Source: Zophobihabitans entericus
GTDB taxonomy: Bacteria; Pseudomonadota; Gammaproteobacteria; Enterobacterales; Orbaceae
Reading direction: 5' to 3'
NCBI RefSeq assembly: GCF_011745665.1
Contig: NZ_CP050253.1
Location: 161,418 to 225,417, forward strand
Length of the DNA: 64,000 bases
A program made the position numbers and the translations under genes. Of the stretch, positions 24,027 through 36,558 are shown one piece after another. Every line of letters begins with the position of its first letter. Position 1 is the stretch's first letter. A model generated the notes under the pieces. That model was not told the DNA's origin, searched no databases, and saw only the letters and a program-made list of their open reading frames with translations.

Positions 24027-25055
24027 TTAACGCATAATTGGATCTTGATCCGCGCCTTCTGCTTCCACTTTTGGCGGCATGAAGTTTTCACGACGTGATC
24101 CTAATTTAAGTGCTGTATAAGCAGCAACATAAATAGACGATACGGTACCAAGAATAATACCAATACCCAATGTTTCAGAGAACCCTTTTAACATACTTCC
24201 ACCCCAAATATACAAACAGATAACAACTGCTAGTGTTGTTCCTGATGTCATTAAGGTACGGCTTAATGTTTGAGTCAGGGAAATATTAATCACGTCATAA
24301 GGTGATGCACGACGAATCTTGGTAAAGTTTTCACGAATACGGTCAAATACCACAATGGTATCATTCAGTGAGTAACCAATGATCGACAGCAGTGCTGCAA
24401 TGATGGTTAAATCCAGCTCTCTTTGGAAAAGAGATAAATAACCCACTGTAATAACAACGTCATGGGCTAGACCAATAACAGCACCAGTACCAAAGCGCCA
24501 TTCAAAACGGAACCAGATATAAATAAGGATACAAACCAGTGCAGCAATAATTGCCAGTACACCGTCCTGAGCCAGTTCAGCACCAACGCTTGGACCAACA
24601 AACTCAACACGTTTTACCACTGCATCTGGATCGATATCACGATGCATCAAATTAGATAACTCCGTACCTAATTGATTACTTTCTCTCATTACCTGACTTG
24701 CATCATTCGCATCTTTTGCAACTACCGGAGGCAAGCGAATAATAATGTCACGACTACTACCATAATACTGCACGATAGGGTCATGATATCCCGCATTGCT
24801 CATGGTGCTGCGAATTTGTTCAAGTTCAACTGGTTGGCTTAATGTGATCTCAACCGATGTACCACCAGTGAAATCTAGACCTAAGTTAAACCCTTTTTGC
24901 CAGACAATAATAATAGAAGCTACCACAAGTATCATCGAAATGATAAAAGCAGGTGCCCCAATTTTTAGAAAATCAAATACACGGCGCCCGTGATTTAAAT
25001 CTTCAACACTGACTGGACCTTGTTGTTCTGTTTCAGTTAACTGTGTCTTAGCCAC
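24027..25055 (-). CDS. secF: Protein translocase accessory subunit SecF
   Basis: An inner-membrane subunit which with SecD uses the proton gradient to pull exported proteins out of SecYEG. 342 residues with six transmembrane helices. The first periplasmic domain begins GFNLGLDFTGGTSVEITL. The TM4 region contains IIALLSIIGYSLNDTIVVFDRIREN, the conserved SecF block with the proton-pathway Asp. It starts 9 bases after secD. The C-terminus ends in an acidic charged tail (PKVEAEGADQDPIMR). Confidence 0.97.
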   Translation of the reverse strand: MAKTQLTETEQQGPVSVEDLNHGRRVFDFLKIGAPAFIISMILVVASIIIVWQKGFNLGLDFTGGTSVEITLSQPVELEQIRSTMSNAGYHDPIVQYYGSSRDIIIRLPPVVAKDANDASQVMRESNQLGTELSNLMHRDIDPDAVVKRVEFVGPSVGAELAQDGVLAIIAALVCILIYIWFRFEWRFGTGAVIGLAHDVVITVGYLSLFQRELDLTIIAALLSIIGYSLNDTIVVFDRIRENFTKIRRASPYDVINISLTQTLSRTLMTSGTTLAVVICLYIWGGSMLKGFSETLGIGIILGTVSSIYVAAYTALKLGSRRENFMPPKVEAEGADQDPIMR

Positions 25056-25064
25056 AATAAACTC

Positions 25065-26921
25065 CTAAATAGATAATTTCTCAACCCGACGGCCACCATA
25101 AACAAGGTTAGCGAGTGCACGCGTACCAACGATAGAGGTAAACATTGATGTCATAACACCAATACCCAGCGTGATAGCAAAGCCTTTAATCGAGCCTGTA
25201 CCTACTGCATAAAGAATCACAGCAGTAATTAATGTGGTAATATTGGCATCAAAGATACTGTTCCAGGCACCAGCATAACCTTCATTGATCGCTTGCTGTA
25301 CACCGCGTCCATTACGGAGCTCTTCTTTAATACGTTCATTAATCAGTACGTTGGCATCCACCGCCATACCAACGGTCAATACAATACCAGCAATACCTGG
25401 CATACTCAGTGTAGCCCCCGGTAACAGTGACATCACACCAACAATTAGTACCAAGTTAGCGACTAAAGCCAAGCTCGCAAATACACCAAACAGACGATAC
25501 ATCAGTAACATAAAGACAACTGAGATCATGAGACCCCAGAAACAAGACTCCAAACCTTGAGTAATATTTTCTTGCCCCATAGTTGGTCCAACTGTACGCT
25601 CTTCAACAATTTGAATTGGTGCAATGAGCGCACCAGCACGTAGTAGTTGTGATAATTGTGAGGCTTCTGCAGCTGAATCTAAACCTGAAATCTGGAAACG
25701 ATCGCTAAAATAGTCCCGGATACGAGCAACGTTAATCACTTCCTCTGTTTTTTCCAGAATTGCTTTCCCGTTTTCATCACGACGTCCACTATCTTTATAC
25801 TCAACAAAAAGTGTCGCCATAAAGCTACCCTTATTGTTTTGAGTAAAGTTAAACATCGTCTTACCACCGGCGCTATCTAAAACGATATCAACCACAGGCT
25901 GACCATATTCATTAACACGAGACTGCGCTTCACGAATGTGATCACCAGTTAAAACAACACGTTTATAAACTAAAACCGCACCACCAGTACGATCATATTT
26001 GACCTCAGAACCAAATGGCGCAGTTGCACGGCCAGCAGCAATCGCATTCATATCAACTGATGTTGAAGGATTAACCTGACGAAACTCAAGGGTTGCCGTT
26101 GCACCTAAAATTTGTTTTGCCAGCGCAGTATCCTGAATACCAGGTAATTCAACAATAATACGTTCTGCACCCTGGCGCTGAACAATGGGCTCTGCTACAC
26201 CTAACTGGTTCACACGATTACGCAAAATCGTAGTATTTTGTTGTACTGCTTCTGTTTTTGCGGCTTGTAAGCGCGCTTCACTCAGACTGATGACAAGTCC
26301 TGTAGTATCTTGCGAGGTTACATTAAAATCTCTTAATAAATCAATTCGTTGAGCCACTTCCTGTCTGGCTTCTGAGGTTGCAAAACGGACAATAATTTGT
26401 TGATTATTACCTTTTGCAATCGAGGTATAAGCTAATTTGTTTTCTTTAAAATCCGCTTTTAAATTTTCGATAGCTTGTGTTAGTAAATTATCGATCGCCG
26501 TCGTCATATCCACTTCCATTAAGAAGTGTACACCACCACGTAAATCGAGCCCCAGCTTCATTGGCTCTGCACCAAACATTCTTAGCCAATCAGGCGTTGC
26601 CGGAGCAAGGTTAAGTGCCACAACATAATCATCACCAAGGGCTTGTGAAAGAACTTCTTTGGCCAGTAGCTGAGTATCGTTGTTACTAACACGAATCAGA
26701 ATTGTATTATTTTCAAATACGATGGATTTAGCATCAATTAGCTCTTTATCAAGGATCTGCTTGACCTTGTCTTGAGTCTCTACATTGACTTCTAAACCTC
26801 GGGTACCTGAAATTTGAACTGCGGGATCTTCACCGTAGATATTTGGAAGTGCATAAAGGAGGCCGGCGCAAATTACGACGACCAACATAATATACTTCCA
26901 CAAAGGATAACGATTTAACAC
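25065..26921 (-). CDS. secD: Protein translocase accessory subunit SecD
   Basis: Partner of SecF in the proton-driven late step of Sec export. 618 residues, near E. coli SecD (615). The N-terminal helix MLNRYPLWKYIMLVVVICAGLLYALPNIYGEDPAVQ is followed by a large periplasmic region (P1), including LGLDLRGGVHFLMEVD. The six-helix membrane part holds GIAGIVLTVGMAVDANVLINERIKEE, with the conserved Asp needed for proton use. It sits between yajC and secF as in E. coli; queA and tgt, which usually precede yajC, are replaced by nuoN. Confidence 0.97.
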   Translation of the reverse strand: MLNRYPLWKYIMLVVVICAGLLYALPNIYGEDPAVQISGTRGLEVNVETQDKVKQILDKELIDAKSIVFENNTILIRVSNNDTQLLAKEVLSQALGDDYVVALNLAPATPDWLRMFGAEPMKLGLDLRGGVHFLMEVDMTTAIDNLLTQAIENLKADFKENKLAYTSIAKGNNQQIIVRFATSEARQEVAQRIDLLRDFNVTSQDTTGLVISLSEARLQAAKTEAVQQNTTILRNRVNQLGVAEPIVQRQGAERIIVELPGIQDTALAKQILGATATLEFRQVNPSTSVDMNAIAAGRATAPFGSEVKYDRTGGAVLVYKRVVLTGDHIREAQSRVNEYGQPVVDIVLDSAGGKTMFNFTQNNKGSFMATLFVEYKDSGRRDENGKAILEKTEEVINVARIRDYFSDRFQISGLDSAAEASQLSQLLRAGALIAPIQIVEERTVGPTMGQENITQGLESCFWGLMISVVFMLLMYRLFGVFASLALVANLVLIVGVMSLLPGATLSMPGIAGIVLTVGMAVDANVLINERIKEELRNGRGVQQAINEGYAGAWNSIFDANITTLITAVILYAVGTGSIKGFAITLGIGVMTSMFTSIVGTRALANLVYGGRRVEKLSI

Positions 26922-26969
26922 GATGTATTCTCTTGTGGGTTTGTTATAACTTTAATTAACGATTGTTAA

Positions 26970-27299
26970 TTAAAGTGATTTCATTGTGCCTTTTGGAAGA
27001 ACAGCAGCGATAAAATCTCTTTTAATTACAACTTCAGTTGTGTCATTAAGTTCTAATGAAACATAACCGCTTTCGCTAACTTTTGCTACACGACCGATTA
27101 ATCCACCATTTGTCAGAACTTCATCACCTTTAGCAATTGAAGACATAAGCTCTCTATGAGATTTCGCACGTTTTTGTTGTGGGCGAAGAATCATGAAGTA
27201 GAAAAACAGACCAAAAACAACCAACATAATTGGGAAGAAATATGGGTTAGTTTCAGCAGCACCAGTGTCCGCATAAGCGTTAGAAATTAAAAAATCCAT
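26970..27299 (-). CDS. yajC: Sec translocon accessory protein YajC
   Basis: A small single-span inner-membrane protein (109 residues) that associates with SecDF and AcrB. The helix FFPIMLVVFGLFFYFMILRPQQKRAKSHRELM and the C-terminal LTNGGLIGRVAKVSESGYVSLELND are typical. It opens the yajC-secD-secF operon. The gap to the upstream nuoN is 151 bases, so a separate promoter is likely, although none is clear. Confidence 0.95.
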   Translation of the reverse strand: MDFLISNAYADTGAAETNPYFFPIMLVVFGLFFYFMILRPQQKRAKSHRELMSSIAKGDEVLTNGGLIGRVAKVSESGYVSLELNDTTEVVIKRDFIAAVLPKGTMKSL

Positions 27300-27450: not shown

Positions 27451-29316
27451 TCAAGGTACTAAATAATGTGCAGCACTCACCAAAGTAAATAGTGGCTGAG
27501 GATAAATACCGCAGAACAAAATTAACAATGCCGATAATACAATGATTGTTTCACTAAAACCGATATTTTTTAATCTTAATACAACGTTATGTTCCATCCC
27601 CGGTTCTGGTGTATCAGTCGCATCGGGTTTTAGATATAAGTTAATAACCAGACGTAAATAGAAATAGAGCCCAAAAGCACTACCAATAACAATCGCTGTA
27701 GCCAGCCACCAAAATTCAGCTGTCACACTTAAAATAATCAGAGCAAATCGACTCATAAAGCCAATAGTCAGTGGAATACCTGCCAGTGATAACAGACCCA
27801 CAGCAATAGACAGTGCCATTACCGGACGTCGCCAGAATAAACCTTTTAAGTCAGTATCCTGTTCCCTGTCATGACGATGGCTTGAACTTGACTCCAGACT
27901 AATCACACCAAAGACACAAATATTAGCCAGAACATAGCTCACCAGATAGATGCCGATAGTTTCCAGCGCTAAGACCTGATACTGAACAGCAATTAATGCA
28001 ATAAACAGATAGCCGAAGTTAGCAATAGATGAATAAGCTAACAGGCGTTTGGTATTTGTTTGCATCAGTGCAAAGAAGTTACCCCAAATAATAGAACAAA
28101 ATGCCATTAATATAAGGATGAGTCTCATCGCTTCATGATTGACAATCGGAGCAAGTAAAAATAGGCGTGCAACGGCACAGAAAATAGCCATCTTAGCCAT
28201 CGTCGCCAGCAGTAAAGATACCGCTGTTGGCGCTCCCTGAAATACATCAGGTAACCAAAGCTGGAACGGTACTAAAGAGAGCTTAAACCCAACGCCGACC
28301 AGCATCAAACAAACACCGGTTAACAGTAATAAGTCAGGATGTGCCAGAATAGATAATTGATAGCTTAATCCACTAAATGTCAGCTCTCCGGTCGCCGCAT
28401 AGTAAAATGCGATACCAAGTAGTAAGAACATGGTAGCAACAGCTGAGAGGATCATATATTTAATCGCCGCTTCTATCGCATTGGACTGACTATACTGGAA
28501 GCCAATAAGCCCAACCAGTGGAATAGAGATCAACTCAATACCAATAAAGAGTGAGATTAAATGACTGGCATAAACCAGAATAATGCCACCAAGTGAAGCA
28601 AATAATAAAATTAAATAGAATAACCCCTGGTCATCGGAATCCGCTTTAAACCATTGAAATGCCAATGCTGCCACAATAATACAGATGATTAAGATTAAAC
28701 CAGTATAAAGCAGGCCGTAGCCATCACAGGTAAATAAGATAGTAACGTAAGAAGCCTTCCAGATATGAGCAGAAACTAGCTCAACATCACTAGTCGTTAC
28801 AGAATCCTGTGTCGTTTGTGCAACAGTATCATCTGTTGCATCTAATAAATTAGTACCGACTTCTTCAGACACATTCCCTGAATTTACAATATTTTGATTT
28901 ATTTGAATATTTTCAGGGTCATTAGTCTCAGTACTATCTATCACTGATTCTTCGGTAGTCGCCACCGGCAGCTCATCAGAAATCACTGTCTCAGTATCGT
29001 CAGCCACAGGTGCTGTTAGTGCAGGTGTCGGTGCAGGAATCAGTGAACCCGGATGCGTAATCTGATCCGCATCATTAAATAGATTGATTTGATAATTCTG
29101 CTGCTGAACTTCAACTGTTTTTGGAAAAGTAATAATCTGATAACCTAAAATAACAGTAGCAGCTAAAGCCGCACACAAACTGATGACTGAGAAGATAGCA
29201 CAAACTTTAGTACCAACTCTTAGCAGCAATAATAAGAACAGTAAAATAACAATCGCCAACCCAATAATCAGAATGGGAGATAAATAGTAGAAATCAGAGA
29301 GTGCTATGCTCATCAT
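27451..29316 (-). CDS. nuoN: NADH-quinone oxidoreductase subunit N with a large extra segment
   Basis: An antiporter-like membrane subunit of complex I. 621 residues, about 135 more than E. coli NuoN (485). After two N-terminal helices there is an insertion (about residues 70-192) rich in Thr, Val, Asp, Glu, Asn and Pro, with almost no Lys or Arg. The subunit then continues normally at FTCDGYGLLYTG. Key charged residues align with E. coli at a constant offset of 128: E133 (E261), K158 (K286), K217 (K345) and K247 (K375) are kept; K395 is Arg523, H224 is Gln352 and H305 is Asn433. Last gene of the nuoJKLMN operon, 2 bases after nuoM. Confidence 0.93.
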   Translation of the reverse strand: MMSIALSDFYYLSPILIIGLAIVILLFLLLLLRVGTKVCAIFSVISLCAALAATVILGYQIITFPKTVEVQQQNYQINLFNDADQITHPGSLIPAPTPALTAPVADDTETVISDELPVATTEESVIDSTETNDPENIQINQNIVNSGNVSEEVGTNLLDATDDTVAQTTQDSVTTSDVELVSAHIWKASYVTILFTCDGYGLLYTGLILIICIIVAALAFQWFKADSDDQGLFYLILLFASLGGIILVYASHLISLFIGIELISIPLVGLIGFQYSQSNAIEAAIKYMILSAVATMFLLLGIAFYYAATGELTFSGLSYQLSILAHPDLLLLTGVCLMLVGVGFKLSLVPFQLWLPDVFQGAPTAVSLLLATMAKMAIFCAVARLFLLAPIVNHEAMRLILILMAFCSIIWGNFFALMQTNTKRLLAYSSIANFGYLFIALIAVQYQVLALETIGIYLVSYVLANICVFGVISLESSSSHRHDREQDTDLKGLFWRRPVMALSIAVGLLSLAGIPLTIGFMSRFALIILSVTAEFWWLATAIVIGSAFGLYFYLRLVINLYLKPDATDTPEPGMEHNVVLRLKNIGFSETIIVLSALLILFCGIYPQPLFTLVSAAHYLVP

Positions 29317-29318
29317 AA

Positions 29319-30947
29319 TTACACCCCTCCCTCAATTAATGCCGGTTGGGCAGTATTATAGAATTGCTGAATCTTATAAATAACTGAATAAGATGTATCC
29401 AGAATAGGTTGAGGATAAACACCTATAGCCACAAGCAGAATCAGTAAAGTAATTAATAAAAAGAGATCCCGACGACTAAGCTCACGGTAAATCACCGCGA
29501 TTTTGATCGGCTCAGCAGTAGTGAGTCCATAGAATATGGGTTGCATACGCACGAGTACAGCAACGGCAATTAAAATTAATCCAATTGTCAGTAATACACT
29601 AACTAAAGAGAAATCAGCATAGCTACCAAACAGTAACATCAGATTACCGGAAAAGTTTGCCGTACCTGGCACACCAAGCACTGCTAAAGCAAAAAAGATA
29701 GTAAATGCCGGCAGATAGCGCACGTGTCCACGTAGACCGACAAATTTCTTAATATTACGGGTCAGATAACGTTCAGCCAGTAAGCCACCAATAATAAATA
29801 AGCCTACAATTGACAGACTCATTGCAATAGTCTGAATAATAATACCCTGATAAGTCAGAACATTACCAATATAGATCGCAACAGTGATAAACCCGAGTAA
29901 AGCAATATGAGTATAAGCCAGTAAACGCTTAATATCATTTTGTGAGAAAGCCAGTAACGCTGCATAAAACAAGGTACACATTCCTAAACTCACTGCAACA
30001 GGCATAAAAGCCAGAGAAGCATTTGGGAACATAGGAATAACAAAGCGTAACATACCGTAAATGGCAGTATTGGTGAGCAGACCACTAATAATCATTGAGC
30101 CTGTGGTTGAAGACTCAATATGTGCTGTTACAAACCAGCCATGGAACGGAATAAGTGGAATTCTCACCATAAATGCCACAAAGAATCCCAACATTAGGAA
30201 GAATTCAGTAAAACTGGAGATAGGTGTTTTAGTCAACAGGTAATAATCAAATGTCCATTTATTAGTTAAGCGCCAGTTGATAAGTACCAAAGAGATAATT
30301 GAAATCAACATTAACAGGCTGCTGACTTGAGTAAAGATTAAGAATTTTGTCGCACCATTAAATCGTAACTGAGCACTGGAATCCCGACGCCCCCAAAGAG
30401 CGATCAGAAAATAAAGCGGAATAGCCACCATCTCCCAAAAGAGGAAGAACAGGAACATATCCATCGCCATGAATAAGCCAATAACACCAGCTGCCATCCA
30501 TAAAATACAGAAATAATAAAGCCCGATATTGGTGTGCTTCTCTTTTCTTGAATAGACAATAGTCAGTATGGTTAAAATCACCGTCAGAGTAATAAAGACT
30601 AGCGAGAAACCATCCAGTAACAGGTGGAATCGGATATTTAAGAAAGCAATCCAGGCTGTATCTTGTATCATCAACCAGGATTGTCCGGTTTTGATCACTG
30701 AGAGATTATCAACCCACAACATTGCTACCAGCGCTAAAACCACCAGCATAGTCAGCAGGGCTATCAGTGATGCGCAATGGTATATCAGATGAGTTTTCAA
30801 TCTCGCCATAACAGGAAGAGTACTGACTTCTATTGAAACGAGTTTTTCAGACAATGCGGTGCGTGCTTTTAGTGTTGCAATAACACTAAACCAGCCAATA
30901 AAACCACCTATAATCGGTACAAAAATTAATAATGATAACACGATCAA
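29319..30947 (-). CDS. nuoM: NADH-quinone oxidoreductase subunit M, lacking most proton-path residues
   Basis: An antiporter-like subunit of complex I, 542 residues with about 14 helices, clearly orthologous to E. coli NuoM (FLFFLFWEMVAIPLYFLIALWG; NAS near FPN; YPQPILDTS near the end). It aligns with a constant offset of 28. E144 is kept (E172). However, K234 is Arg262, K265 is Asn293, H322 is Leu350, H348 is Met376, E407 is Asn435, and the Asp of LPDAH is Thr. These are the residues that form the central hydrophilic axis in E. coli. The fold seems intact while the proton path seems lost. It begins 40 bases after nuoL and ends 2 bases before nuoN. Confidence 0.95.
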   Translation of the reverse strand: MIVLSLLIFVPIIGGFIGWFSVIATLKARTALSEKLVSIEVSTLPVMARLKTHLIYHCASLIALLTMLVVLALVAMLWVDNLSVIKTGQSWLMIQDTAWIAFLNIRFHLLLDGFSLVFITLTVILTILTIVYSRKEKHTNIGLYYFCILWMAAGVIGLFMAMDMFLFFLFWEMVAIPLYFLIALWGRRDSSAQLRFNGATKFLIFTQVSSLLMLISIISLVLINWRLTNKWTFDYYLLTKTPISSFTEFFLMLGFFVAFMVRIPLIPFHGWFVTAHIESSTTGSMIISGLLTNTAIYGMLRFVIPMFPNASLAFMPVAVSLGMCTLFYAALLAFSQNDIKRLLAYTHIALLGFITVAIYIGNVLTYQGIIIQTIAMSLSIVGLFIIGGLLAERYLTRNIKKFVGLRGHVRYLPAFTIFFALAVLGVPGTANFSGNLMLLFGSYADFSLVSVLLTIGLILIAVAVLVRMQPIFYGLTTAEPIKIAVIYRELSRRDLFLLITLLILLVAIGVYPQPILDTSYSVIYKIQQFYNTAQPALIEGGV

Positions 30948-30987: not shown

Positions 30988-32832
30988 CTATAAAAATACC
31001 AGTAATAATAAAATCAATACGCCGCCACCAACAATCGAGGCCAGATACCAACGCAGATGACCATTCTCGAGCGGTACAATCACCCCGTTAATACGGTCTA
31101 TTCCCCAGGTAATTGAGGTATTCCAGTTAGCCAGCGGATCTTTATGAATACGTTTAGTAATATATAAATAAGGCACCACAAAAATCGCGTGATATAACCA
31201 CTCAATACGCCAGCCATGATACCAAAATTGCGTCAGTGTCTTACCTATCGGACTATTAGAAATCTCATGTATTTCTGCATGTTTACCCGCATACAACATA
31301 TAGGTAATCAAAATACCCAGCGTCGTCACTGCGGCAAGTAAAATCTGAAAGCCAAATTTACCATCTTCCGGAACTTCTGTAATCGGTAAGACACCTTGTA
31401 TAGGTAGAGGTAAGTACACTAAGAAACCGGTAGAAAGGAGCACCAAAATAAATAATGGGATAGTTTTTAGTCTGGTCGCAGGAACTAGCGTCTCAACTTT
31501 GGATTTATTATGAAACACTAAAAAGACCAGTCTAAACACAAATAAAGCTGACAGTAATACGCCAACTAGCCCTAGTGTACCAAAGCCCAAGCGCCCTTCA
31601 CTAATCGTTTGCCAGATGATATCACCTTTAGTAAAGAAGCTGGCCGTTAACCACGGAACTGCACTTAATGACGCCCCGGCTACAATAAAGCAGAAATAGA
31701 TAAATGGTAAACGTCTGGCCAGACCACCCATTTTGGTAATATCTCGCTCTCCACCACAAGCTCTGATGACAGAAGCAGACGCTAAAAAGAGTAAGGTACT
31801 GAAGGCCGCGTAATTAATTAAGTAAATGAGTGCTAACTGCCATGCCTGAACTGAAATCGCCATAAAGACATAACTAATCTGACTGAGGCTGGCATAGATA
31901 ACAATACGTTTGATATCCTGTTGTACCAGTGCACAGCAACTGGCAAAGAGCATCGTCAGACAGGATAGAACCCCGATAATTAAAAAGAGGTCTGTCGACA
32001 TCATAAACAAGCTATTTAAACGTAAAATTAAGTAAATGCCTACTAACATTGTCGATGCACAATGAATAAGAGTTAATGCCGGCATTGGGGCAGCGGTCGT
32101 ATCTGTTAACCAGGTTTGTAGTGGCATTTGTACCGATTTACCAATAGCACCTAAAAATAGCAGGAATGTGATCCAGAAAATAATTTCAGAATCGATCGCC
32201 AGTTTATCTTTAGCGACAATAAGCAAATCCCGAATATTTAATGTCTGCAGCTCACTATAAACCAGAAATAGTCCTATCAGTAGGAAGATATCACTAATAT
32301 GCATCACAATAAATGTTCTGGCTGCAGCATAACTATTTTTTAATTGTTTATGATAGAAACCCACCAGCAGGTAGGAACATAAGGTAATACCCTCCCAGCC
32401 AAGTAACATCACAAATAAGTTATCTGCCAGTAACACTATCACCATACAGGCGATCAATAAGTTACCATAAGCAAAGAAGGTATAAGCCTCTTGCTTACTG
32501 ATATAGTTCACCGCATAAAGGTGTACTAAGAAACCAATCAGAATAACAACCAACAGAAAGACCAGAGAAAGTCCGTCTAATAACAGGGAAATCGAAATAA
32601 CAAAGCTATCTACTGAGATCCAGCTCCATAAATAACGAGTATAAATCAAACTTGAATCTGGCTGATTATTAGCATAAAAATCGATCATCACAAAAATAGA
32701 CAGAAGCAGCACTAGCCCGACAGCACTAACGCCAATAACAGCTACGCTTTCTGCACGCCAGCGTCGACCACTACACGCCAGAATCAAAAAAGAGATTAAG
32801 GGGATTAAGATTGTAAAATAGAGTAGATTCAT
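30988..32832 (-). CDS. nuoL: NADH-quinone oxidoreductase subunit L with altered central proton site
   Basis: The distal antiporter-like subunit of complex I, 614 residues, like E. coli NuoL (613), including the C-terminal lateral-helix region and final [11 protein letters not shown]. With a constant offset of 3, E144 (E147), D178 (D181), K229 (K232), H254 (H257) and K399 (K402) are kept. The TM11 block differs: E. coli H334, H338 and K342 are Tyr337, Tyr341 and Ser345 in [18 protein letters not shown]. Its start overlaps the nuoK stop (ATGA), indicating coupling. Confidence 0.95.
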
Positions 32833-33131
32833 CCTTTCATCTCACTTAATGCATCAATATTGAGTGTTTTACGTCGATGATATAACTGTAATAACAAAGC
32901 AAGACCAACACAAGCTTCCGCTAAAGCAGCACTCACCGCAAGAATTGACATAATCTGCCCATCATGTTGTTGCCAATAAATACCAGCTGAAACTAAAGCT
33001 AAAATAGCTCCATTCATCATTACCATCAGGCTAAATAGCATAAATAATAAATTTCTACGGATCATGACACCAAATAAACCAATCACAAATAATCCTGTTG
33101 ATAGCATGATACTGTGCATGAGAGGAATCAT
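32829..33131 (-). CDS. nuoK: NADH-quinone oxidoreductase subunit K with Glu36 replaced by Met
   Basis: A small three-helix membrane subunit, 100 residues as in E. coli. The alignment is gap-free: IRRNLLFML leads into SLMVMMNG where E. coli has GLEIMINA, so the conserved Glu36 is Met36 (codon ATG, 33024-33026). No acidic residue occurs anywhere from 32 to 40, positions where a relocated Glu can still work in E. coli. Glu72 is kept ([14 protein letters not shown]). The gene overlaps nuoJ and nuoL by four bases on each side. Confidence 0.95.
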
Positions 33132-33697
33132 AGTTTCTCCCCCAGTTGTTCATCTGTCATATCTTTATCTTCTTCATTTTTTTCTATCATTTCATCGTGT
33201 GCAGCATAAACTTCACGCGCAAAATGGTAAGCGATCACGAGCGCACCTAACAAAAGTAGTACCGCAAGTTCAATAACCAGAATATAAGGAGCCATCAGCA
33301 TTTCGCCCAGTGACTCTTCTCCTGCAACAGGTACTGCATTAATTTGACCATAATCGGTATGAACAATGCTATACAGTAAAATAACTAACAGTACAAAAGC
33401 TAACATTAAAGGACCTAACCAGACTTTAGGTGTTAAACTCTTTTTTTCCTGTTCGATGGCATCTTTAGTAATATTGAGTAATGAAATGGCGGAAATAAAT
33501 AAAATGGCAACAGCACCAATAAAGACAATAACCTGTAAAGCAGCAGTAAAATAAGCACCTAAGGTAAATAACACCACTGATGTTGCCAGTAATGAAACAA
33601 CCAAATAGAGCAATGCGCTAAAAGGTATTGAGCTACTGATGACTTTAAAACTAGTCAGTATAGCGATGATTGCAGCGATGTAAAAAACTGATAGCAT
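33128..33697 (-). CDS. nuoJ: NADH-quinone oxidoreductase subunit J
   Basis: A membrane subunit of complex I, 189 residues with five helices. It is recognisable from [24 protein letters not shown] and [21 protein letters not shown]. In the TM3 region of E. coli (EIIVYAGA) this protein has QVIVFIGA, so E55 is Gln and Y59 is Phe. The C-terminus is acidic. It is the first gene of the operon here: nuoI, its normal neighbour, is missing, and 221 bases upstream lies the divergent ppc gene. The product may be made in small amount, as no strong ribosome site is visible. Confidence 0.93.
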
Positions 33698-33918: not shown

Positions 33919-36558
33919 ATGGATAAACAATATTTATCTATGCGAAGTAATGTCAATATGCTGGGAACATTACTCGGAGACGCAATTACACGCGCAACAG
34001 GTAAAGAGACCCTAAACTTGGTCGAAAAAATTCGTCAGCTATCCAAAGTCTCACAGCAAGAAGGTGATGAAAAAGCACATGATGAGCTTCTTGAAACCAT
34101 CAAAAATTTAACTGATGATGAGCTGTTACCGGTTTCTCGTGCTTTCAACCAATTTTTAAACTTAGCGAATACTGCTGCCGAATATTACGGTATTTCACCT
34201 CATGGTGAAGCAGCCAATAGCCCAAAACAACTTGCATCACTATTTACTTCATTAAGTGAGTTGAAGTTCTCTAAAGAGAATATTACTCAAGCAATTGAAA
34301 ATCTTTCTATTGAGTTAGTACTTACTGCGCATCCGACAGAAATTAATCGTCGTACCCTAATTAATACCCATACATCAATTAATAATTGTCTGGCTCAACT
34401 CGATCACAATGATCTGGCTGATTATGAAAGAGATCGTATTATGCGTCGTTTACGTCAGTTGGTTTGTCAGGCCTGGTATACTGACGAAATCCGTAAGCAT
34501 CGTCCGACACCACTGGATGAGGCGAAATGGGGCTTCTCTGTTATTGAAGACAGTCTGTGGGAAGGTGTGCCTCTGTTCTTAAGAGAATTCAACGATCAGT
34601 TAGTCCATGCTTTTGACCAACAACTCCCTGTTGAGCTGGTACCAGTAAAATTTACTTCCTGGATGGGTGGTGACCGTGATGGTAACCCAAATGTTACCGC
34701 CAGAATTACAGCCAGAGTGATGCTGCAAGCACGCTTAAAAGCAGTAGAATTATTTTTAGGTGATATTCATACCTTAGTGCGTGAGCTTTCCATGAGTGAG
34801 TGCTCACAAGATGTTTTAGATCTCCTTAGCAATCCTGAAGTATCAGAGCCTTATCGTGCAGTGATGAAACAACTCAGAGCCCGGTTAGTAACCACTCACG
34901 ATTATCTGATTGCACTGATTAACGGTGAGTCTGTTGTTCAGCCAAAAGATATTCTTATTCATAATGATCAACTCTGGTCGCCACTTTATACTTGCTACCA
35001 GTCGCTGATTGATTGCGGTATGTCGACAATTGCCCATGGTCCACTACTTGATACATTACGCCGTATTCGTTGTTTTGGTCTACAGCTCTTACGTTTAGAT
35101 GTACGTCAGGATAGCTCATTCCATACCGAAGCGTTAGATGCACTAACTAAAGAGCTTGGCCTTGGTAGTTATCAATCATGGTCAGAAAAAGAACGCCAGG
35201 CATTTTTAATTCAGGAACTACAATCAAAACGTCCGTTGTTACCACATGACTGGCAGCCGGAAGAGAGTGTTAAAGAGGTCTTTGATACCTGCCGAGTTAT
35301 TGCGCTATCAGAAGCTGATTCAATTGCCGCTTATGTGATCTCAATGGCAAAATCGCCATCAGATGTGCTGGCTGTTTATCTGCTACTAAAATCTGTTGGT
35401 TGCACTAAACATATCCCGGTAGTTCCACTATTTGAAACACTCGAAGACCTGAATAATGCTAATGACATTATGAAGCAGCTACTTGATATCCCATGGTACC
35501 GTGAAAAAATTAACGGTAAACAAATGGTGATGATAGGTTACTCTGATTCTGCCAAAGATGCCGGAACCTTTGCTGCTTCATGGGCACAGTACCGTTCTCA
35601 GGAAGAACTGGTTAAAACATTTGAAGAAGAGAAGATCGATCTGACACTGTTCCACGGACGTGGTGGTACAATTGGTCGAGGTGGTGCACCTGCTCATGCT
35701 GCGTTACTTTCTCAGCCACCAGGATCATTAAAAGGTGGTTTGCGTGTCACAGAACAAGGTGAGATGATCCGCTTCAAACTGGGTCTGCCTGAAGTTGCTC
35801 TGAGTAGCTTAATGCTATACGCATCCGCTATTTTACAAGCTAATTTATTACCGCCACCGGAGCCAAAACAGAGCTGGCGGGATATCATGGACAAGATGTC
35901 TGATTCATCTTGTGCTTGCTACCGACACTTTATTCGGGAAGAACCTCAATTCGTACCTTATTTTAGAGCAGTGACACCAGAAGCAGAACTTGGTCGTTTA
36001 CCTCTGGGTTCAAGACCACAAAAACGTCGTACTGGTGGCGGCGTTGAAAGTTTACGTGCTATTCCATGGATCTTCGCCTGGACACAAAACCGTCTGATGC
36101 TGCCATCATGGCTTGGGGCTGGTACTGCTCTGCAACAAGCTTTTGATGAGGGTTCTGCACCGCTATTAAAAGAGATGTACCATGACTGGCCATTCTTTAC
36201 CACACGTATGGGTATGCTGGAAATGGTTTATGCTAAAGCAGATCCAAAAATCAATGCTTACTATGAGCAGCGTCTGGTAGATAAATCATTATGGCCACTG
36301 GGTGATCAGTTACGTGAACAACTGGAAAAAGATATTCAGGTCGTGCTCAGAATTACTGATGATGACAGTTTAATGGCAGACCTGCCATGGATCGCAGAGT
36401 CTGTTGCATTACGTAATACTTATATTGAGCCTCTTAACTTATTACAAGTTGAGCTGCTTGAGCGTTCACGCAATGCGAAAGAGCCTAATCCAATTGTGGA
36501 ACAAGCATTGATGATTACCATCTCAGGTATTGCTGCAGGTATGCGTAACTCAGGTTAA
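33919..36558 (+). CDS. ppc: Phosphoenolpyruvate carboxylase
   Basis: Carboxylates PEP with bicarbonate to oxaloacetate, feeding the TCA cycle. 879 residues, near E. coli Ppc (883). The catalytic blocks are intact: [13 protein letters not shown] with the essential His, [20 protein letters not shown] with the catalytic Lys, [14 protein letters not shown] with the arginines, and the C-terminal [12 protein letters not shown] that binds aspartate. GAGGCAATA precedes the ATG. The upstream region shared with nuoJ holds a TATTAT that could be the -10. The gene ends at a strong terminator. Confidence 0.98.

Follow-up and report, generated by a model that had tools for sequence, protein, structure and literature searches.

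Orphan nuoJKLMN genes in Orbaceae, most likely encoding a complex I membrane arm kept without a redox role

The way in which the antiporter-like subunits of complex I carry protons, and the ability of each to work by itself, are still debated. These questions are raised here by a locus of Zophobihabitans entericus (Enterobacterales; Orbaceae, a family of insect-gut bacteria), which lies in a 64,000-nucleotide stretch of contig NZ_CP050253.1 (positions 161,418 to 225,417; the whole stretch is termed the window). This locus encodes a NuoM that, according to an earlier note made from the DNA letters alone, has lost nearly all residues of its proton channel, keeps its structure, and may no longer pump. 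We asked what such a protein belongs to and what it could still do.

NuoM of the window and of its relatives

The nuoM open reading frame (ORF) scored 382.7 bits against TIGR01972 (cut-off, 263.8), which places it in the NuoM/ND4 family; it remained under the cut-off of the equivalog NF004498 (491 versus 614), and its phmmer match to E. coli NuoM (3rko_M) had a value of 1.2e-130. Residue numbers below are those of E. coli MG1655 NuoM, to which the window protein is related by a constant offset of 28 (phmmer against 3rko_M and MAFFT against MG1655). The gene and the residues placed by alignment with MG1655 are as follows:

29319..30947, minus strand: nuoM, 542 amino acids (aa), TTG start, assigned with TIGR01972 and phmmer
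30432-30434, minus strand: E144, retained as E172
30162-30164, minus strand: K234, replaced by R262
30126-30128, minus strand: D246, replaced by T274
30069-30071, minus strand: K265, replaced by N293
29907-29909, minus strand: S319, replaced by H347
29898-29900, minus strand: H322, replaced by L350
29820-29822, minus strand: H348, replaced by M376
29643-29645, minus strand: E407, replaced by N435

Both alignment methods reproduced the earlier assignments at K234, K265, H322, H348, E407, the Asp of the LPDAH motif, and E144, including the offset of 28. The accompanying statement that only E144 remains was too strong, as H241, K173, D135, and E108 are likewise retained in the alignment with MG1655. 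The description of the rest of the protein as well conserved holds in a relative sense, with a mean identity of 41% between the window NuoM and the outgroups versus 59-77% among three outgroups themselves.

We compared 24 NuoM sequences from 40 related genomes (five Orbaceae genera) with 81 other gammaproteobacterial NuoM sequences. All 24 Orbaceae proteins carry R234, L322, and N407, with Ile, Val, or Met at position 348 and Asn, Thr, Ser, or Gly at position 265; the outgroups retain the ancestral K234, K265, H322, and E407 in 81/81 sequences and H348 in 80/81. The pattern of loss read from one genome is thus common to the family, except at D246, where Thr is private to the window NuoM and the relatives have Asp, Glu, or Gln. 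The membrane region of NuoM has also gained two charges (i.e., H319 and R439), and H319 stands in place of Ser in 17 of the 18 Orbaceae sequences of one alignment and in 24/24 of another. Because K234R, H322L, and E407N occur in all 24 Orbaceae proteins while the outgroups are ancestral at these positions in 81 of 81, chance is excluded as the source of these replacements. A sequencing or assembly error was rejected, given the same changes in 24 independent genomes, and so was a second, normal NuoM copy, since the genome of the window encodes three Proton_antipo_M proteins in all, namely, NuoL, NuoM, and NuoN.

The fold of NuoM is retained in an AlphaFold model (mean pLDDT, 75), in agreement with the earlier note; the model matches E. 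coli NuoM with a Z score of 42.9 over 483 residues (42% identity) and MrpD with a Z score of 38.5. The note had named other ionisable residues on the same axis as evidence that would speak against its reading. As placed by sequence and helix geometry, H319, one turn from the lost H322, would be the sole candidate substitute of this kind, and the central lysine and the distal glutamate appear to have no replacement at all.

Mutants of complex I indicate what such replacements do in a complete enzyme. In Paracoccus NuoM (Nqo13), catalysis is severely impaired by E141Q, K232Q, K263Q, and E405Q, whereas 57% is left with H320L (a His-to-Leu change identical to that of Orbaceae NuoM), water is able to replace the His relay, and the mutant enzymes stay coupled whenever they are active (PMC9802314). 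The E. coli NuoM mutation E407K lowers H+/e- to about 1.5 (PMC9271201). By analogy, five changes of this kind in NuoM should bring complex I to a halt, not leave it running without pumping. A complex that runs but no longer pumps would therefore be an unexpected outcome, since in real complex I changes of this type slow or stop catalysis and do not uncouple it (PMC9802314).

Gene content and layout of the locus

All five distal membrane-arm subunits (NuoJKLMN) were identified in the window; the cluster starts with nuoJ, and no nuoA-I lie ahead of it. The neighbouring genes are as follows:

33919..36558, plus strand: ppc, divergent neighbour
24027..27299, minus strand: yajC-secD-secF, co-directional and downstream of nuoN

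Searches of 18 family genomes showed that NuoH (PF00146) and NuoD (PF00346) are absent from the genome of the window and from 15 of its 17 relatives; in the remaining two (G004 and G008), the NuoH and NuoD matches are hydrogenlyase-like. These two genomes have separate loci (G004:C1:361332-369644 and G008:C1:1738514-1746649) with NuoH-like, NuoD-like, and antiporter-like genes that resemble formate hydrogenlyase (FHL). NuoA (PF00507) and NuoF (PF01512, Complex1_51K, which also covers RnfC) were absent from 44/44 family genomes with positive controls. A complex I encoded elsewhere in the genome was rejected on the basis of these four family searches with working controls: neither the NADH-oxidising module nor the quinone module with its membrane anchor was found. 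The earlier premise that this NuoM acts within a functional complex I, one with fewer pump strokes, is therefore not supported, and because NuoA, NuoD, NuoF, and NuoH are absent, there is no NADH-driven H+/e- ratio to measure. In an order-wide sample of 218 genomes, all 64 genomes outside Orbaceae whose NuoM passed the cut-off also carry NuoH (lists matched by eye), including two genomes of only 0.3 Mb. Both nuoH and nuoI lie beside nuoJ-N in 80/80 outgroup loci versus 0/18 Orbaceae loci. We are almost certain that nuoJKLMN is an orphan, non-redox module.

The order ppc (divergent), nuoJKLMN, yajC-secD-secF is common to all five family genera examined, although a few of the retrieved stretches yielded no ppc. 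Outside Orbaceae, nuoJKLMN and yajC-secD-secF are normally unlinked. Promoter-like sites were at or under the shuffled mean and terminator-like sites were above it but within 2 standard deviations, so both were set aside; the sole Rfam match was a tRNA.

The orphan gene content is already known: according to passages of PMC11325843 (2024), nuoJKLMN are the sole nuo genes of 95 Gilliamella genomes and of Orbaceae at large, and they are proposed there to be remnants of genome reduction. We found no report of the residue changes of NuoM and its partners in the open-licence literature or in the nuo passages of that paper, and these passages likewise contain no mention of purifying selection or of the NuoN insertion described below. 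According to the same source, most Orbaceae retain the frdCD membrane anchors without frdAB. With this parallel case, two respiratory complexes are cut back to their membrane parts, which suggests a common reason.

NADH oxidation is available through an Ndh-type enzyme, which was present in 12/12 genomes searched and was the sole NADH dehydrogenase found among those searched for; NqrA was not found in ten family genomes (the genome of the window and nine others). NhaA was also not found in ten family genomes tested, an absence that we set aside as weak support for an antiporter role, since a genome with complex I (G027) lacks NhaA as well.

Partner subunits, selection, and descent

The loss of residues extends past NuoM to NuoJ, NuoK, and NuoL. 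The genes and features compared are as follows:

33128..33697, minus strand: nuoJ; Y59 is Phe (33521-33523)
32829..33131, minus strand: nuoK; E36 is Met (33024-33026), E72 retained
30988..32832, minus strand: nuoL; E144, D178, K229, H254, and K399 retained, Tyr for H334 and H338, Ser for K342, Gly for D400
27451..29316, minus strand: nuoN, 621 aa versus about 485; E133, K158, K217, and K247 retained, Arg for K395, Gln for H224, Asn for H305
28741..29133, minus strand: acidic low-complexity insertion of NuoN, about residues 62-192, between TM2 and TM3

These positions, compared between 17-18 Orbaceae sequences and 81 outgroups, are essentially invariant in the outgroups. In NuoL, K342, H334, and D400 are each gone in 17/17 Orbaceae, Tyr replaces H338 in 17/17, and Gln replaces H254 in 14/17; D178 and K229 (Lys or Arg) stay, K399 is present in 16/17, and E144 is missing in 3/17. 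NuoK has Met, Ile, or Val for E36 in 18/18 Orbaceae and Gln for E72 in 5/18, and NuoJ has Phe for Y59 in 17/17. In the largest genus (probably Gilliamella), NuoJ is 163-165 aa long (L044, L049-L053, L056, and L057), versus 184-189 aa in other Orbaceae and E. coli.

NuoN retains E133, K158, K217, and K247 in 18/18 Orbaceae, with the distal K395 replaced by Arg in 17/18. A conserved proton axis of the complex I type through NuoK, NuoN, NuoM, and NuoL was not found, although the NuoN core is retained. NuoN also carries an insertion of 64-150 aa in all 17 Orbaceae measured, which is absent from the outgroups and very different in length and sequence among the 17 proteins, with conserved flanks; the total length is 553-642 aa in Orbaceae and at most 497 aa in the outgroups. 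The AlphaFold model of NuoN was of low confidence (pLDDT, 50) and was set aside apart from a predicted disordered stretch at 68-196. The insertion is possibly periplasmic.

The genes nuoJKLMN are under strong purifying selection. Among eight genomes of one genus, the median omega (dN/dS) by a counting method was 0.14 for nuoJ, 0.09 for nuoK, 0.09 for nuoL, 0.07 for nuoM, and 0.10 for nuoN (0.074-0.138 across the five genes), compared with 0.10 for yajC, 0.07 for secD, 0.04 for secF, and 0.04 for ppc (0.037-0.100 across these neighbours); many pairs had high dS, and the values are rough. In 17 genomes from five genera, none of the five ORFs is disrupted. In neutral simulations, 0.1 substitutions per site brought about 23 stops over the five genes, and at each divergence of 0.1 or more none of 50 runs left all five ORFs intact. 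Neither the relaxed selection nor the disrupted reading frames of a relic were thus observed, and these results bear out the view of the earlier note that nuoM is not in general decay. The five genes are very probably maintained for a present function.

In a tree of concatenated NuoL, NuoM, and NuoN, the Orbaceae group as a single clade (support, 1.0) whose stem measures 0.88 substitutions per site and which adjoins lineages with complete complex I. This topology is consistent with a single early burst of change and constraint thereafter; key relay residues of NuoM, NuoL, NuoK, and NuoJ were replaced before the Orbaceae diversified. A preferential loss of axis residues was rejected as non-significant: 11 of 24 conserved axis positions were kept on the stem versus 368 of 581 others (p = 0.09). 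The axis lost its special protection, and the stem also saw losses at conserved positions generally.

Possible function and comparison with known systems

These results indicate that nuoJKLMN most likely derives from the membrane arm of complex I and has been retained in a non-redox form. The best explanation overall, to which we assign a probability of roughly 0.4, is a stand-alone module with passive secondary ion movement via NuoN and NuoL and with NuoM as a linker. The five Nuo proteins would still assemble. They are not a redox-driven pump because there is no redox input, which would make NADH-driven proton pumping impossible; ion movement would instead be secondary, through a cation/proton exchanger or a gated proton path resembling the core of Mrp antiporters. 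NuoN, with its E133/K217/K247 core, and the partly retained NuoL would be the conducting units, and NuoM would be a non-transporting linker that keeps the E144-R234 pair as charge and has lost the central Lys, the His relay, and the distal Glu. Ion exchange or conduction is tentatively proposed as the function, and ion exchange centred on NuoN is our best guess, unproven, drawn from homology (PMC7419157) and the retained residues. With no central lysine in either NuoL or NuoM, and with Arg in place of the distal lysine in NuoN, a continuous proton path is doubtful. Two further observations speak against an exchanger: no EFG-type Mrp subunit, searched for as MrpG in ten family genomes, was found to provide a cation route, and axis residues are still eroding inside Orbaceae (NuoL E144 and NuoK E72).

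The strongest rival holds that the module conducts no ions and persists because it serves assembly or binds some other membrane machine (e.g., SecDF-YajC, encoded alongside). Such a scaffold or partner would suit a fold that is retained although four of the five subunits have lost relay residues, the conserved order from ppc to secF in all five genera examined, and the new acidic NuoN insertion, which could be a docking arm; it would not, however, need the E133/K158/K217/K247 core that is invariant in 18/18 NuoN, and gene order by itself is weak evidence, many neighbours being conserved among relatives. We consider it less likely than the preferred reading. A relic left from gene loss and decaying, as passages of PMC11325843 propose, is improbable: the remainder of complex I is gone, the axis is no longer protected (p = 0.09), and erosion is ongoing at NuoL E144 and NuoK E72, but the intact ORFs in 17 genomes, the omega of about 0.1, the new states N407, R234, and L322 fixed in 24/24 NuoM, and the neutral runs all argue against a remnant in the sense of neutral decay.

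Two further alternatives have the module still energised or still pumping. In favour of an unrecognised redox partner in place of nuoA-I are the survival of all three antiporter-like subunits and the quinone chemistry of Orbaceae described in passages of PMC11325843; yet the coupling residues facing the redox side (NuoK E36 and NuoJ Y59) are gone, no new gene lies inside the cluster, neither Complex1_51K (NuoF/RnfC) nor NqrA was found in the family genomes searched, and Ndh already provides NADH oxidation, which makes such a partner quite improbable. It is more improbable still that NuoM passes protons via substitutes (H319, water wires, or R234) and that the module still pumps. In 17 of 18 aligned sequences, Ser gives way to H319, a helical turn away from H322, and water can stand in for the His relay in Paracoccus, but the central Lys and the distal Glu are both gone, single K263Q and E405Q mutations severely diminish activity there (PMC9802314), and no redox input would drive the pumping.

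If the preferred reading, a stand-alone module with secondary ion movement, is widened to any new non-redox machine (an ion exchanger, a gated leak, or a partner to which another system is coupled), we give even odds that the Orbaceae made the membrane arm into such a machine, with NuoN as its basis and NuoM silenced to a linker, and kept by selection. This would be a natural reversal of the origin of complex I from antiporter-like modules. The Orbaceae offer a natural test of lone subunits, with the redox engine gone and the relay dismantled in NuoM and NuoL but not in NuoN, and the annotations "remnant" and "NADH dehydrogenase subunit" are put in question in dominant bee-gut symbionts.

The set is filed neither as complex I nor as Mrp because the defining features of each were looked for and not found. 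With the membrane arm of E. coli complex I it shares five genes in the same order, the NuoM fold, and direct phylogenetic descent; it differs in the absence of NuoA-I, the replaced relay residues of NuoJ, NuoK, NuoL, and NuoM, and the acidic NuoN insertion. NuoL is homologous to MrpA-N, NuoM and NuoN to MrpD, NuoK to MrpC, and NuoJ to MrpA-C (PMC7419157), and Mrp antiporters likewise are stand-alone and non-redox, with homologous antiporter-like subunits and NuoK/MrpC-like and NuoJ/MrpA-C-like parts. The Orbaceae set differs from them in that MrpG (PF03334) was not found in ten family genomes tested, its phylogeny is of the complex I type, and its NuoL and NuoM lack the central lysines. The FHL-like loci of G004 and G008 also encode NuoH-like, NuoD-like, and antiporter-like subunits, but they occur in only two family genomes, are unlinked to nuoJKLMN, and owe their type to the pattern of matches. 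The orphan nuoJKLMN of Gilliamella and other Orbaceae in passages of PMC11325843 is the same gene set in the same family, there termed a remnant.
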